This document shows, in pieces, positions 39,589 to 46,148 of a stretch of DNA of 64,000 bases. The position numbers and the translations under genes were made by a program. Origin of the DNA: Halomarina litorea. GTDB lineage: Archaea; Halobacteriota; Halobacteria; Halobacteriales; Haloarculaceae. The stretch covers positions 310,001 through 374,000 of the forward strand of contig NZ_CP100448.1 of the NCBI RefSeq assembly GCF_024227715.1, written 5' to 3'. The notes beneath the pieces were generated by a model. It was not told where the DNA came from. It made no database searches and saw nothing but the letters and a program-made list of their open reading frames with translations. Position 1 is the stretch's first letter; each line of letters starts with the position of its first letter.

Positions 39589-40761
39589 ATGCTCGTCGCC
39601 TCGCTGGTCCTCGCGGTCGGCCTCTTCGCGGTCGCAGCCGTCACGCAGCTTCGAGGCCTCCGCCTCGGTGGCACCATCGTCGCCGGCGTGCTCGCGATGT
39701 ACTCGCTGAAGAACTTCGTGATGCTCCCGCTATTCGTCGGGAGCGCGACGCTCGCCGCCGGCGTCCTCTGGTTCGTCCGGGAGCACACCCTGCTGTACGG
39801 GCGCGACGAGTTCGTCGTCACCCTGCTCGCCGGGTCGGGCATCCCGATGCTCCTGCTGGCGGTCGAGTTCGCCCTGCCGGGGCCGCTCTCGCGGGCGCTC
39901 GTGCGGGCGTCGTTCATCGGGAGCGTACTCCCCGGGCTGGCGGCGTACAACTTCATGCAGGTCAAACCGGAACACCGCCGGGAGGACCTGCTCGCGTCGG
40001 TCGGGCTGCTGTCCGTGCTGCTGGTGGTCGGCGGCCTGCTCGTCGGCCCGGAAACGCGCTTTCTCGCCGACTACGCGCCGCTCGTCCTGTTCGCCGAGAC
40101 GTCCGACATCGCGCTGCTCCGGGGCGCGGTGGTCGACGGGCCGGCAGACCCGGTCATCGTCGCCCGCGAGGTGGTCGTGGCCGCCTTCGGCGTCGGACTC
40201 GTCCTCTCGGAACTCGCTCGGCGGACGGTCGGGCTGCGCGTCGGCATCGTCTCGCTGGCCATCCTCGCGGTCTACACGCTGTCGAGCGTCCGACTGGTCG
40301 GCCTCTTCCTCGTCGAACTCGTCGTCCTCGTCGCGTTCGTCGAGGCGGTCAACCGGACGACGCTCCTCTACGGCCGGGTCCTCATCGGGCTGGCGACGGG
40401 GACGGGGGTGGTGCTCGGGGTGGCCCTGACCCCGCTGCTGGGCGTCGAACTGGGGCTGTCGGCGCTCGTCGTCGGCCTCCTCGCGGGCATCGACGCCTAC
40501 AACGTCCACGTCACGCCCCCGGCCGAGCGCGTCCAGTGGCTCGCGGTGGTGCTCGCGATGTACGCCGCGCTGTTGCTCGTCCTCCGCCTCGTCGTCCAGC
40601 CCCTCCCGGACGGTGCGCCCCAGTCGCTCGGGCTCCCGACCGTCGTGGGGGGCGTCCTCCTCGTCGTCGGCTGCCTCGCGCTGGCACTCGCGCTCGGCGC
40701 GCGGAAACCCGACGACCGGTCGGTGCTCTCGGCGTCGGTCCTCAGCGGGGGTGACGGCTGA
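39589..40761 (+). CDS. capC: Duplicated CapC/PgsC poly-gamma-glutamate synthesis membrane protein
   Basis: 390 residues, about ten helices. CapC is normally about 150 residues. Here two similar halves are fused: HTLLYGRDEFVVTLLAGSG...AAYNFMQVKPEHRRED in the first and TTLLYGRVLIGLATGTGVVL...DAYNVHVTPPAERVQW in the second. It forms the membrane part of the poly-gamma-glutamate polymerase with CapB, whose ATG overlaps its stop by one base. The expected export/anchoring gene capA (pgsA) is not adjacent. The polymer probably protects against desiccation and salt shifts (inference). Confidence 0.85.
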   Translation: MLVASLVLAVGLFAVAAVTQLRGLRLGGTIVAGVLAMYSLKNFVMLPLFVGSATLAAGVLWFVREHTLLYGRDEFVVTLLAGSGIPMLLLAVEFALPGPLSRALVRASFIGSVLPGLAAYNFMQVKPEHRREDLLASVGLLSVLLVVGGLLVGPETRFLADYAPLVLFAETSDIALLRGAVVDGPADPVIVAREVVVAAFGVGLVLSELARRTVGLRVGIVSLAILAVYTLSSVRLVGLFLVELVVLVAFVEAVNRTTLLYGRVLIGLATGTGVVLGVALTPLLGVELGLSALVVGLLAGIDAYNVHVTPPAERVQWLAVVLAMYAALLLVLRLVVQPLPDGAPQSLGLPTVVGGVLLVVGCLALALALGARKPDDRSVLSASVLSGGDG

Positions 40762-41894
40762 TGGGGCCGTTCGGGCGCGGTCGCAGGCACCGCCGCCTGC
40801 TCGAGGGCGTCGACCTCCGCATCGCCGTCTCCGGCATCCGTGGGAAGTCCTCGACGACCCGCCGACTCCACGACGTCTTCTACGAGCGCGGCTACGACAC
40901 GCTGGCGAAGATAACCGGCGACTTCCCGCTGACGGTCCACAACGGGGTCGAAGAACCCATCGCCCGGGACGGCCGGCGGGTCACGCTCTACGAGAACGAG
41001 CGCGTCCTCGGAGAGTTCCTCCCTCGCCTGTTCGCCGAGGAGCCGAAGGACGTCCTCGTCGCCGAGAACCAGGCCATCACTGAGTACACGATGCGCATGG
41101 TCAACGAGCGGTTCGTCCGGCCACACGTCATCCTCCTCACGAACATCCGGCAGGACCACAACGACACGCTCGGGAAGGACCGTCAGACCATCGCGCGGTC
41201 GTTCGCCCGCTCGATTCCCGCGGGGACCCACGTCGTCAGCGGGGAGCAACACCCCGTCATCCACGACTACCTCGCGGCGGAACTGGAGCGGCGCGACGCG
41301 ACGCTGACGCAGGTCGAGGTTCCCGAAGAGCACCGGTCGTACACGGGCGCCGAGACGGTGTACGCGATAGACGAGATACTCCGCTTCGCGGACGAACCGC
41401 CGCTCGACGAGGAGCGCAGACTGTCGCTCCTGGGCGGGTTCCGGCCCGACTGGCTGGACCTCGGCGACGGCTTGCTGTTCAACGCGGCGAAGGTCAACGA
41501 GATAGAGAGCACGGAGCTGTTCCGCCGGCACCTCGCCGGGGACGCCCCCGACGCCCGGGTGGTCTGCCCGTTCGTCTTCCTCAGGCGGGACCGACGCGGG
41601 CGCAGCGCCTCCTTCGCCGAGTACGCCGACATCCTCCACGACCGGGGGCTCATCGACCGGGTACACGTCGCGGGCGCGGGGACGGGCGCGTTCGCCCGCG
41701 CGGTCGACCCTCCGGCGACGGAACACGACATCGAGACGACGGCTCCCGAGACGGTCCTCGACCGCCTGCTGGCGACCGGACAGCCGGTGGTGCTGATGGC
41801 GAACACCGTCCACCCGTTCATGCGCCGGATGCGCGAAGTCGTCGACGCGCGGACCGTGGGGACGGTCCCCGGGCGGATGGACGGCGGGGACTGA
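40761..41894 (+). CDS. capB: CapB/PgsB poly-gamma-glutamate synthase
   Basis: 377 residues. The Mur-ligase-type P-loop is AVSGIRGKSSTTRRL (about 23-37). CapB motifs LLTNIRQDHNDTLGKD and GLLFNAAKVNEIESTELF follow. It activates and polymerises glutamate with ATP at the inner membrane face together with CapC. Start and stop of the pair overlap (ATGG after TGA context), indicating one operon. The C-terminal half keeps the VLMANTVHPFMRRMREVV block. Confidence 0.88.
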   Translation: MGPFGRGRRHRRLLEGVDLRIAVSGIRGKSSTTRRLHDVFYERGYDTLAKITGDFPLTVHNGVEEPIARDGRRVTLYENERVLGEFLPRLFAEEPKDVLVAENQAITEYTMRMVNERFVRPHVILLTNIRQDHNDTLGKDRQTIARSFARSIPAGTHVVSGEQHPVIHDYLAAELERRDATLTQVEVPEEHRSYTGAETVYAIDEILRFADEPPLDEERRLSLLGGFRPDWLDLGDGLLFNAAKVNEIESTELFRRHLAGDAPDARVVCPFVFLRRDRRGRSASFAEYADILHDRGLIDRVHVAGAGTGAFARAVDPPATEHDIETTAPETVLDRLLATGQPVVLMANTVHPFMRRMREVVDARTVGTVPGRMDGGD

Positions 41895-42548: not shown

Positions 42549-42616
42549 GGTGAGGAGGTGGGACGGCGACCCCGAAGCCGTTGCGGTCACGCGGGAGTGT
42601 CCCCGAACCCCGGAAC

Positions 42617-42625
42617 GCTTTTGCC
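42617..42625 (+). promoter_or_regulatory. TATA-like promoter of the pheST leader
   Basis: GCTTTTGCC is centred 27 nt before the ATG at 42648, the same sequence and spacing as at polD1. It predicts a leaderless transcript beginning at the mini-ORF, with about 240 nt before pheS. Confidence 0.6.
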
Positions 42626-42647
42626 CGTACCACCGCCACGACCACCC

Positions 42648-42728
42648 ATGGCACCCGAACTCCGCCGTGTCCGCGCCGTCCGCGAGCGACCCGTCAGCCG
42701 GGAGTTCGGGTTCTTTTTCGCGGCCTGA
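42648..42728 (+). CDS. Putative Phe-rich leader peptide of pheST
   Basis: 26 codons, ATG to TGA: MAPELRRVRAVRERPVSREF then GFFFAA. Four of five consecutive codons are Phe (TTC GGG TTC TTT TTC), including TTT, which is uncommon in this GC-rich genome. The ORF begins where the promoter predicts transcription starts, 161 nt before pheS, and its stop is followed 14 nt later by a strong hairpin. This is the arrangement of the bacterial pheM leader. It fits attenuation of pheST by charged tRNA-Phe supply; this is inference without archaeal proof. Confidence 0.5.
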   Translation: MAPELRRVRAVRERPVSREFGFFFAA

Positions 42729-42742
42729 GTGGGCGGCGGACT

Positions 42743-42772
42743 CCCCGTCTCGCGGACTCGACCGCGAGGGGG
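42743..42772 (+). terminator. Hairpin after the Phe leader (putative attenuator)
   Basis: CTCGCGG (42749-42755) and CCGCGAG (42762-42768) pair around a 6-nt loop. Outer CCCC (42743-42746) pairs with GGGG (42769-42772) across a 2-nt bulge. An upstream TCGCGG at 42718-42723, inside the last Phe codons, could pair with the same right arm, so two exclusive folds are possible. No long U-run follows. Confidence 0.5.
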
Positions 42773-42888
42773 ACGAAATCGCCCCGGCCGCGTCGTCCGA
42801 AAACACCTAACCCGTCCACCGGAGAGGACGAACTAACGAACGCCGACCAGCGAACCGGCGACCCGCAGTACACCGACACAGACACACC

Positions 42889-44397
42889 ATGCAACTCCCA
42901 CAGGCGCAGGTCGCGGTCCTCGAGGCCGCGAGCGCGAACGAACCGAGAACCGTCGAGGCCATCGCAAGCGAGACCGGCGAGTCAGAGACCGCGGTCACGC
43001 GCGCAGCCTTCGAACTACAGGACGCGGGCCTTCTCACCGTCGAGGAGTCCGTCGAGGAGTCCGCCACCATCACCGAGGAAGGCGAGACGTACCGCGAATC
43101 GGGCCTTCCCGAACTCCGCCTGTTCCGGGCCGCCGTCGACGCGGGCGCGGGTGACGAGGCCGTCTCGATGGGGCGACTCATCGGCGCGTCGGGACTGGAG
43201 GGAGGGGAGGTGGACATCGCGCTGTCGAACTTCGCCCGGAAGGGGTACGGCGAAATCGACAGCGGGGCCGTCCACGCCGCCGAGGCCGACCCCGACACAG
43301 ACGAGGAGGCCGCCGCCCTCGACGCCCTCGCGGCGGGCGAGGCGGTGGCGGAGGAGGTCCTCGCGTCCCTCGAACGGCGGAACCTCGTCGCGCGCGAGGA
43401 GCGCACCGTCCGAACCGTCGAACTCACCGACGAGGGGGTCACCGCCCTGATGGAGGGCGTCGAGGCCGCAGACACCGTCGGGCAGGTCACGCCGGAACTG
43501 CTCACCAGCGGCGAGTGGCGCGACGTGACGTTCAGCGAGTACAACGTCGAGGCGGACGCCGAGACGGTCACGGGAGGGCGCGAGCACATCCTCCGACAGA
43601 CCGCCAACCGCGTGAAGGACGTCCTCGTCGGGATGGGCTTCTCGGAGATGGACGGCCCACACGTGGACTCGGAGTTCTGGATCAACGACTGCCTGTTCAT
43701 GCCGCAGGACCACCCCGCGCGCACCCACTGGGACCAGTTCGTCCTCTCGGCACCCGAACGGGTGGACGAGGACGCCCTGCCCGCCGACCTCGTCGAACGG
43801 GTCGCGTCGGCCCACCGCGAGGGCGTCGGCGACGACGGCGAGGGCTACCACTCGCCGTGGAGCGCGGACGTCGCCCGAGGACTGGACCTGCGCGGGCACA
43901 CCACCTCGCTGTCGATGCGCTACCTCTCGGGGTACGCGGAGGGCGAACTCGAACCCCCACAGCGGTGGTTCTCCGTCGAGAAGGTGTACCGCAACGACAC
44001 GCTGGACGCGACGCACCTGCTGGAGTTCTTCCAGATCGAGGGGTGGGTGATGGCCGAGGACCTCTCCGTGCGCGACCTGATGGGGACGTTCACCGAGTTC
44101 TACGAGCAGTTCGGCATCACGGACGTGGAGTTCAAGCCCCACTACAACCCCTACACTGAGCCGAGCTTCGAACTGTTCGGCCGGCACCCGGAGACGGGTG
44201 AGGTGGTCGAAATCGGCAACTCGGGCGTCTTCCGACCCGAAGTACTGGAACCCCTCGGCGTCGACTGCGACGTGATGGCGTGGGGCCTCTCGCTCGAACG
44301 ACTGCTCATGCTCATGTACGGCTTCGAGGACATCCGCGACGTGCACGGGACGCTGTGTGACTTAGACCTCCTGCGGACCGTGGAGGTGGTTCACTGA
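42889..44397 (+). CDS. pheS: Phenylalanyl-tRNA synthetase alpha subunit
   Basis: 502 residues, the long archaeal/eukaryal type. N-terminal winged-helix repeats (about 1-190: QVAVLEAASANEPRTVEAIA, LEGGEVDIALSNFARKGYGE) precede the class II core. Core blocks are NDCLFMPQDHPARTHWDQF (motif 2 area), YLSGYAEGELEPPQRWFSVEK, FQIEGWVMAEDLSV and motif 3 AWGLSLERLLMLMYG. The TGA overlaps the pheT ATG (TGATG). Its leader region carries the mini-ORF and hairpin described separately. Confidence 0.96.
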   Translation: MQLPQAQVAVLEAASANEPRTVEAIASETGESETAVTRAAFELQDAGLLTVEESVEESATITEEGETYRESGLPELRLFRAAVDAGAGDEAVSMGRLIGASGLEGGEVDIALSNFARKGYGEIDSGAVHAAEADPDTDEEAAALDALAAGEAVAEEVLASLERRNLVAREERTVRTVELTDEGVTALMEGVEAADTVGQVTPELLTSGEWRDVTFSEYNVEADAETVTGGREHILRQTANRVKDVLVGMGFSEMDGPHVDSEFWINDCLFMPQDHPARTHWDQFVLSAPERVDEDALPADLVERVASAHREGVGDDGEGYHSPWSADVARGLDLRGHTTSLSMRYLSGYAEGELEPPQRWFSVEKVYRNDTLDATHLLEFFQIEGWVMAEDLSVRDLMGTFTEFYEQFGITDVEFKPHYNPYTEPSFELFGRHPETGEVVEIGNSGVFRPEVLEPLGVDCDVMAWGLSLERLLMLMYGFEDIRDVHGTLCDLDLLRTVEVVH

Positions 44398-46148
44398 TGC
44401 CCGTCGTCGACGTGGACCCCGACGAACTGCGCCGGCTGGCATCGACCGAGAAGGACGACGAGGAGCTCAAATCCGACCTGTTCGCCCTCGGGCTGGAGTA
44501 CGAGGGGGAGACGGAGGACGGCGAGTTCCAGCTAGAGTTCGCCCCGGACCGACTGGACAGGCTCTCCGTGGAGGGGGTCGCCCGCTCCCTGCGGTACCAG
44601 TACGGGACCGACAGGGGCGTGTACGTCCCGAAGACCAACAGCGCGGAGTGGGTCATCGAGGTGGAGGAGTCGGTGCCCGCAGAACGCCCGTACGTCACGG
44701 GGGCTATCGTCCGCGGACTGGACATGAGCGAGGCCGGCCTGGAGTCGCTCATCCAGTTGCAGGAGAAACTCCACGCGACGATGGGCCGCAAGCGCGCGAA
44801 GGGAGCCATCGGCGTCCACGACCTGACGATGCTGAAGGGTCGCTCGGCGCGCGACGACGCCCCGAAGTCCATCACCTACCGGGGCGTGGAACCCGACGGC
44901 GACACGTTCGTCGCCCTCGACAGCGACGAGGAACTGACGCCCGGGGAGGTCCTCGAAGAACACCAGACGGGACAGCAGTACGCCGATCTGGTGGAGGGCT
45001 ACGAGCGCTACCCGGCCATCTACGACGACATCGGCCTGTTCTCGTTCCCGCCGGTCATCAACGGCCGGCGGACGGAGGTCACGGAGGACTCCCGGGACCT
45101 GTTCATCGAGATGACGGGCACCGACCAGTGGACCGTCGACAGGATGCTCGCCATCGTCTGCTACGCGCTCGACGCCCGCGGTGGGCGCGTCGAGGAGGTG
45201 CGCGTCGAGTACCCCGAGGGCGAGGCGTACGACCAGCCGGCGCTCACGCGCCCCGACTTCGAGGTGGAGCGAAAGTCCGTCACCCACGAACGCGTCGAGT
45301 CGTTGCTGGGCCTCGATTTGGCGGAGGAGACGGTCGTGGACTGTCTGGAGCGTTCGGGACTGGACGCCGAGACGGCGGAGGTGGGAGACGACGAACTCGC
45401 GTACGACGTGAGCGTCCCGCCCTACCGGGTGGACGTCCTCCACGCCGTCGACGTCGTGGACGACGTGGGCCGTGCCTACGGGTTCAACGACCTCGCGCCG
45501 CGCTACCCGGACGTGAACACCATCGGGGGCCGCCACGAGCGCACCCGACTGGAGGACGCCGCCCGGGACGTCCTCGTGGGCCTCGGCTTCGAGGACATGC
45601 TGAACTTCCACCTCGCGAGCGAACGCGACTGCTTCGAGCGACTGGGCCTCGACGTGCCCGAGGGTGACGCGCCCGCACTCGACGCGCCACTCGGTGAGGC
45701 CCCGCCGGTGACCATCGCGGAACCGTACAGCGAGGACTACACGCTCGTGCGCACGTGGGCGCTCCCGTCGCTCATGATGGTGCTGGAGAACAACACCCAC
45801 CGGTCGTACCCGCAGGACCTCGCGGAGATCGGCCTCGCGGCGCACGTCGACACGAGCGAGGAGACGAAGACCGCCGAGCGCCGGACCGTCGCGGGCGTCC
45901 TCGCGCGCACCGACGCGGGCTACGAGGCGGCGAAGGGTCGCCTGCAGGCGCTCGCTCGGGCGTTCGACGTGGGACTGGAGACGCCCCCGACGAGTCACCC
46001 GACGTTCATCGAGGGACGCTGTGCGAGCGTCGTCCTCGACGGCGAGGCGGTGGGCGTCGTCGGTGAAATCCACCCGCGCGTGCTGGTGGAACACGACCTC
46101 GAAGTGCCCGTCGCGGCCTTCGAGTTCGACCTCGCGGCACTGAACTGA
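44397..46148 (+). CDS. pheT: Phenylalanyl-tRNA synthetase beta subunit
   Basis: 583 residues, short archaeal form without the tRNA-binding OB extension of bacterial PheT. It starts MPVVDVDPDELRRLASTEKD. A B3/B4-like editing domain (about 90-230: GAIVRGLDMSEAGLESLIQL), a B5 domain (YRVDVLHAVDVVDDVGRAYG) and a catalytic-like C-terminal domain (LGFEDMLNFHLASERDCFER, SHPTFIEGRCASVVLDGEAV) are present. It forms an alpha2beta2 enzyme with PheS and edits Tyr-tRNA-Phe. Coupled translation is indicated by the 1-nt overlap. Confidence 0.96.
   Translation: MPVVDVDPDELRRLASTEKDDEELKSDLFALGLEYEGETEDGEFQLEFAPDRLDRLSVEGVARSLRYQYGTDRGVYVPKTNSAEWVIEVEESVPAERPYVTGAIVRGLDMSEAGLESLIQLQEKLHATMGRKRAKGAIGVHDLTMLKGRSARDDAPKSITYRGVEPDGDTFVALDSDEELTPGEVLEEHQTGQQYADLVEGYERYPAIYDDIGLFSFPPVINGRRTEVTEDSRDLFIEMTGTDQWTVDRMLAIVCYALDARGGRVEEVRVEYPEGEAYDQPALTRPDFEVERKSVTHERVESLLGLDLAEETVVDCLERSGLDAETAEVGDDELAYDVSVPPYRVDVLHAVDVVDDVGRAYGFNDLAPRYPDVNTIGGRHERTRLEDAARDVLVGLGFEDMLNFHLASERDCFERLGLDVPEGDAPALDAPLGEAPPVTIAEPYSEDYTLVRTWALPSLMMVLENNTHRSYPQDLAEIGLAAHVDTSEETKTAERRTVAGVLARTDAGYEAAKGRLQALARAFDVGLETPPTSHPTFIEGRCASVVLDGEAVGVVGEIHPRVLVEHDLEVPVAAFEFDLAALN

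Follow-up and report, generated by a model that had tools for sequence, protein, structure and literature searches.

In Halomarina litorea, the phenylalanine--tRNA ligase genes pheS and pheT are preceded by a conserved leaderless mini-ORF ending in phenylalanine codons, which we interpret as a leader-peptide ORF that probably controls pheST in cis according to the supply of Phe-tRNA (rough probability 0.78; the Phe response itself is inferred from sequence comparison). Textbooks describe leader-peptide attenuation as a bacterial mechanism, and to our knowledge a phenylalanine sensor of this type is known only from bacteria. In the pheM-pheST attenuator of E. coli, a Phe-rich leader ORF lies directly 5' of pheST, with a hairpin after its stop. 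A search limited to open-access literature found no report of leader-peptide attenuation in Archaea. If the interpretation is correct, haloarchaea tie tRNA charging to the transcription of aminoacyl-tRNA synthetase and amino-acid genes, by an attenuation built from archaeal parts: leaderless mRNA, U-tract termination and perhaps FttA. Table 1 collects the features identified in the window, that is, the whole stretch of 64,000 nucleotides that was analysed.

Table 1. Features of the pheST leader region of H. litorea, in window coordinates
Feature	Position	Strand	Basis
Leader BRE/TATA promoter, CGGAACG C TTTT, -37 to -26 from ATG	42611..42622	+	Sequence and 101-locus profile
Putative leaderless leader-peptide ORF, 26 codons and stop, MAPELRRVRAVRERPVSREFGFFFAA	42648..42728	+	Sequence, frame conservation, locus profile
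H1 5' arm, codons 2-6	42653..42663	+	Covariation, RNAalifold
H1 3' arm, Arg-Glu-Phe-Gly codons directly 5' of Phe run	42701..42711	+	Covariation, RNAalifold
Putative control codons Phe22-24, TTCTTTTTC, holding T5C	42711..42719	+	Sequence comparison; PMC7237163 for T5C
P1 stem 5' strand, 1 nt past stop; outermost pair mismatched in window	42730..42736	+	Covariation
YGGA, 5' side of G.A-rich internal loop	42737..42740	+	Alignment anchor motif
P2 stem-loop, holding the 7+4-bp hairpin of the first-pass annotation	42742..42773	+	Covariation, RNAalifold
GAAA, 3' side of internal loop	42775..42778	+	Alignment
P1 stem 3' strand	42779..42785	+	Covariation
pheS-proximal promoter-like motif GAAAACACCTAACC, role uncertain	42799..42812	+	Motif comparison
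pheS, phenylalanine--tRNA ligase alpha subunit, putative regulated gene	42889..44397	+	NF003210, 3.5e-176
pheT, phenylalanine--tRNA ligase beta subunit	44397..46148	+	TIGR00471, 2.5e-135

Conservation of the leader ORF and its promoter

The leader ORF is flanked by a divergent methyltransferase-like gene on one side and by pheS-pheT on the other, and its stop is separated from pheS by 160 nt. The TTTT box at 42619-42622 lies 26-29 nt 5' of the ATG, and the transcript is predicted to begin at the mini-ORF itself, i.e. to be leaderless; the ORF, its TATA-like box and its Phe tail are as the first-pass annotation had described them. A profile of 101 loci placed the promoter at a fixed position, with C at -37, AA at -34/-33, TTTT at -29 to -26 (T at -29/-28 in 99%) and a pyrimidine at -1. 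Elsewhere in the window, a PgsB-like gene of the Mur-ligase family (40761-41894; TIGR04012, below cut-off) adjoins a membrane-protein ORF (39589-40761), a pair that recalls poly-gamma-glutamate synthesis genes.

Conservation of the ORF and of its Phe codons in relatives had been set beforehand as a test, and it holds across the class. In a sample of 80 haloarchaeal pheS loci plus genus-mates, most carried a mini-ORF with a GFGFFFAA-like tail, whose end lay 35-245 nt from pheS in the wider locus set. Of 134 distinct sequences preceding haloarchaeal pheS, 101 passed a strict scan for a leaderless ORF with such an F-tail. A strict pattern matched in 135 of 292 Halobacteria genomes (46 of 77 genera), the reversed control pattern giving one match; among 30 of the matching loci that were fetched, four had no adjoining pheS and were chance matches. 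A covariance model built from 40 leaders (R2) matched the window at E 1.2e-24 and gave a single strong match in about 118 of 145 Halobacteria genomes, as counted manually from the E-value list after weak matches had been taken out; pheS was downstream in 30 of its 30 best matches. By this search the leader is absent from about a fifth of Halobacteria genomes. Outside Halobacteria, R2 had no match in any of 35 genomes, and a scan of the DNA preceding pheS there brought up nothing comparable; F-containing ORFs occurred at two of those loci but were of another kind. On these comparisons, the mini-ORF is confirmed as real and widely conserved.

A previous model, R1, was dropped because its H1 was offset by 3 nt. 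Weak second matches of R2 in several genomes were attributed to chance, most of them lying in an MCM-like coding region (several were examined), and so was a match preceding a cupredoxin-like gene (L161). Some leaders appear decayed or error-bearing: in L160 (G129) the ATG is replaced by ACG, in L065 part of the Phe codons are now Leu codons, and L026 has a likely homopolymer frameshift in an Ion Torrent assembly.

Transcript starts of Haloferax volcanii were mapped by Babski et al. (2016). Table 2 of that paper (PMC4983044) lists for pheS (HVO_2948) a long 5'-UTR with a 26-aa uORF (No. 13; pI 5.9, mass 2772) and no additional TSS. In other members of the genus, to which H. larsenii belongs, most leaders are 26 aa long, and several have a pI of 5.94 and a mass of 2792-2850. 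As far as that table allows, uORF No. 13 is very probably the same leader element in Haloferax, the match being made through the congeners and not through the H. volcanii sequence. A pheS transcript starting downstream of the leader would have refuted the annotated proposal, and the tabulated H. volcanii entry speaks in the proposal's favour. In the accessible part of the paper the uORF is only catalogued, without discussion of its amino-acid content, conservation, structure, function or any role in attenuation.

Phe codons, U-runs and matching leaders at other genes

H1 is a helix between the start of the ORF and the codons that precede the Phe run. When both arms were located by a pattern blind to reading frame, 84 of 85 loci had a spacing between them divisible by 3, and all 85 had an ATG at a constant offset, 7 nt before the H1 arm. 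The TTN codons after the H1 arm comprised 227 TTY and 0 TTR, codon positions 1 and 2 being almost always T; as read from these alignments, the TTY-only pattern is a signature of Phe codons and not of a mere U-rich stretch. Both the frame and the TTY counts overstate independence, the loci being related by descent.

The Phe codons are also biased towards U-runs. In the tail, 33% of Phe codons are TTT, whereas pheS at these loci uses TTT for 4.2%; the tail share is 59% in leaders whose tail has at most two Phe and 20% in the others (no correction for relatedness). The bias usually yields TTCTTTTTC or a comparable T5C-containing run, the longest T-run reaching at least 5 in 39 of 66 leaders; over 101 leaders, 55 have a T-run of at least 5. 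In a Haloferax reporter, T5C terminated 95% of transcripts in H. volcanii (PMC7237163). The TTTTTC at 42714-42719 is this haloarchaeal T-stretch terminator motif (five T, then C), termination there being only inferred, and it differs from the terminators of that study in lying inside coding sequence, where it overlaps the putative sensor codons.

This bias allows a different explanation, in which selection would act on H1 and on a U-rich terminating or pausing stretch, Phe being incidental to the U-runs, and the system would sense leader translation in general and not Phe. Such an RNA-level terminator is consistent with U-runs exceeding normal codon use, with T5C being a proven terminator, and with Val, Ser and Ala substitutions in the Phe run that still keep their Ts (GTT, TCT, GCT). 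However, 26 of 101 leaders keep their Phe codons with no T-run longer than 2, indicating that the U-run is favoured and not required; in addition, the third base is always a pyrimidine and the gene downstream is that of PheRS. We consider this explanation unlikely, and leaders at other genes argue further against it.

Because Table 2 of PMC4983044 also lists a uORF, of 23 aa, before the H. volcanii tryptophan--tRNA ligase gene HVO_A0127, the regions upstream of trpS were examined. Throughout the class, leaderless mini-ORFs with Trp codons (WRW) preceded a second trpS gene (31 of 39 loci), for example MDAVRWRWHAPSPADSPVVAPVAA and stop at locus L169 (G000:C1:193988-194923, outside the window; relatives L166-L173 and L227-L255). 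These ORFs contain a near-invariant GCGGACAGT, and a conserved GCTCCCT(C)CG-TTCTC follows the stop; the two could pair with each other, which makes this a second candidate attenuator. Leaderless mini-ORFs ending in IIVG(A/V) were found before the acetolactate synthase gene ilvB in seven Halomarina genomes, and in 14 of 37 loci by a stricter scan (for example MTLTDAPGTPAASVALVIIVGAA and stop at locus L275, G000:C1 about 1637422-1637494; relatives L272-L279 and L290-L316), and are candidate branched-chain leader peptides. A scan of trpS, hisS, pheA and all loci with narrow criteria had missed the Trp leaders, which wider scans recovered; no leader appeared in the wider scans of hisS, pheA and trpE in Halomarina. 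The agreement between residue and gene in three cases makes the control-codon reading much stronger, being hard to explain without control codons, and the matching codons at trpS2 and ilvB are not U-runs, as an RNA-level terminator would have them. A general ribosome-mediated attenuation in haloarchaea, covering pheST (Phe), the second trpS (Trp) and ilvB (Ile/Val) and using the Phe codons as an archaeal terminator, falls only just short of an even chance in our estimation.

RNA structure of the leader

The folding energy of the window region as a single sequence is ordinary (z -0.74), and for this reason the case for structure was built on covariation. In H1, 93% of cells were paired and 37 were double-changed, shuffles giving 10; P1 alone had 58 against 19; and H1, P1 and P2 together had 92.6% paired cells and 131 double-changed cells against 46.7 (0/500 shuffles). 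Unconstrained RNAalifold recovered the three helices alike. The first Phe codon of the window leader, codon 20, sits within H1, and H1 pairing is kept when the amino acids change, as in L013 (VGR/ASD) and L073 (PGL/ESG); Haloglomus has GTCGGACGC/GCGTCCGAC, and in L073 the stem Phe has become Ser and is compensated by a change from Glu to Gly.

The 7+4-bp hairpin noticed initially after the stop is present at 42744-42770, but it is only the inner part of the conserved P1-P2 rod (42730-42785). TCGCGG, proposed to compete for its right arm, occurs at 42718-42723, but the pairing is absent in relatives such as L001 and is not conserved. In the loci inspected, P1-P2 is not immediately followed by a U-run. 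An Rfam search returned no family match (Phe leader and T-box included), only a chance one to sR10 at E 4.3. By inspection, the internal-loop motif is CAAA in one Halomarina subgroup. A kink-turn reading of the loop was abandoned, the P2 register not supporting a 3-nt bulge. Upstream of pheS in L056 and L073, long palindromic inserts, perhaps small mobile repeats, lie between the leader stop and the rod.

P1 and P2 covary strongly around the YGGA/GAAA loop, like sites of RNA-binding proteins, and control could be exerted by PheRS or by a ribosomal or RNA-binding protein bound to the rod, with the mini-ORF only tuning access. This seems quite improbable to us: the loop motif served to anchor the placement of P1, its invariance thus being partly by construction; L201 and L202 have no P1-P2 rod, yet keep H1 and the Phe codons; and those codons would be left unexplained.

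Proposed switch and promoter arrangement

The leader ORF, the promoter, H1, P1-P2, the Phe codons and the U-run bias are all established by sequence comparison; the exact switch is inferred. The leader was considered against the criteria for leader-peptide attenuation. A short ORF on the operon transcript is supported by the frame, by the leaderless promoter and by the tabulated H. volcanii TSS and uORF, its translation being inferred. The control codons match the amino acid of the operon, Phe at pheST and likewise at trpS2 and ilvB, and H1 provides a conserved helix over the ORF that is open to disturbance by a stalled ribosome. A further criterion, an antiterminator and an intrinsic terminator hairpin that exclude each other, with a U-run behind the hairpin, 3' of the ORF, fails at the pheS leader. 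The pheM-like control of pheST by Phe codons put forward in the first-pass annotation is supported by conservation, by the tabulated H. volcanii transcript and by the trpS2 and ilvB leaders, but not in its bacterial details: there is no U-run after the downstream hairpin, the TCGCGG competition is unconserved and the U-run lies inside the ORF, and for these reasons the leader was not classed with the classical attenuators of bacteria.

Under a shortage of Phe-tRNA, the leading ribosome would stall on the Phe run, keeping H1 open and masking the U-rich codons there, and RNA polymerase would read on into pheST. With Phe-tRNA in ample supply, the ribosome would pass and depart, H1 would refold, and the U-rich stretch would be left bare between H1 and P1-P2, where the transcript would end through the U-tract, the termination nuclease aCPSF1/FttA or both. 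In this scheme the Phe codons serve as sensor and termination signal at once. RNA polymerase may clear the U-run before the ribosome reaches the Phe codons, in which case direct termination at the U-run alone would be blind to Phe. The U-tract/FttA part of the switch is tentative, and we would sooner doubt than assert it.

The haloarchaeal leader resembles pheM-pheST of E. coli in its Phe-rich ORF before pheST, its post-stop hairpin and the likely stalling at Phe codons. It differs in being leaderless, in its archaeal transcription machinery, in having no Rfam match, in having its U-run among the Phe codons instead of behind the downstream hairpin, and in H1 joining the ORF start to the codons before the Phe run. 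In TnaC-Rho type attenuation of the E. coli tna operon, a stalled ribosome masks the loading site of a termination factor. The logic proposed here, of a ribosome covering such a site, is alike; the signal would be tRNA charging instead of the ligand-arrested nascent peptide of TnaC, and the factor aCPSF1/FttA instead of Rho. Coupling of transcription and translation is supported for Haloferax (PMC8576121), and according to a review aCPSF1/FttA may exclude ribosome coupling (PMC8116511).

A second promoter-like motif, GAACCGCTAACTGA, is strongly conserved in haloarchaea whether or not they carry the leader, and its distance to the pheS downstream is mostly 34-55 nt; as a BRE/TATA-like motif it is strong in 55 of 66 loci with the leader and in 16 of 18 without. 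In Halomarina relatives (L001, L002 and L087) it lies 34-35 nt before pheS, and the window copy is weak and about 90 nt upstream. Judged by its sequence it is probably a weak promoter, its function being unproven. Its presence in many clades means that pheS may have a leader-independent promoter there, and in some clades only a share of pheST transcription may be under leader control. This motif in many loci and the leader's own promoter would suit an independent micro-gene beside pheS, encoding a conserved 26-aa protein without control in cis, which is scarcely credible given the variable middle of the peptide, the explanation of its conserved N- and C-terminal residues by RNA pairing (residue-altering changes included), its single copy, at pheS in 30/30 best R2 matches, and, so far as Table 2 of PMC4983044 goes, a pheS 5'-UTR that contains the uORF and no separate pheS TSS. 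In L201 and L202 the pheS-proximal motif is also missing, and the leader promoter is the only one visible.
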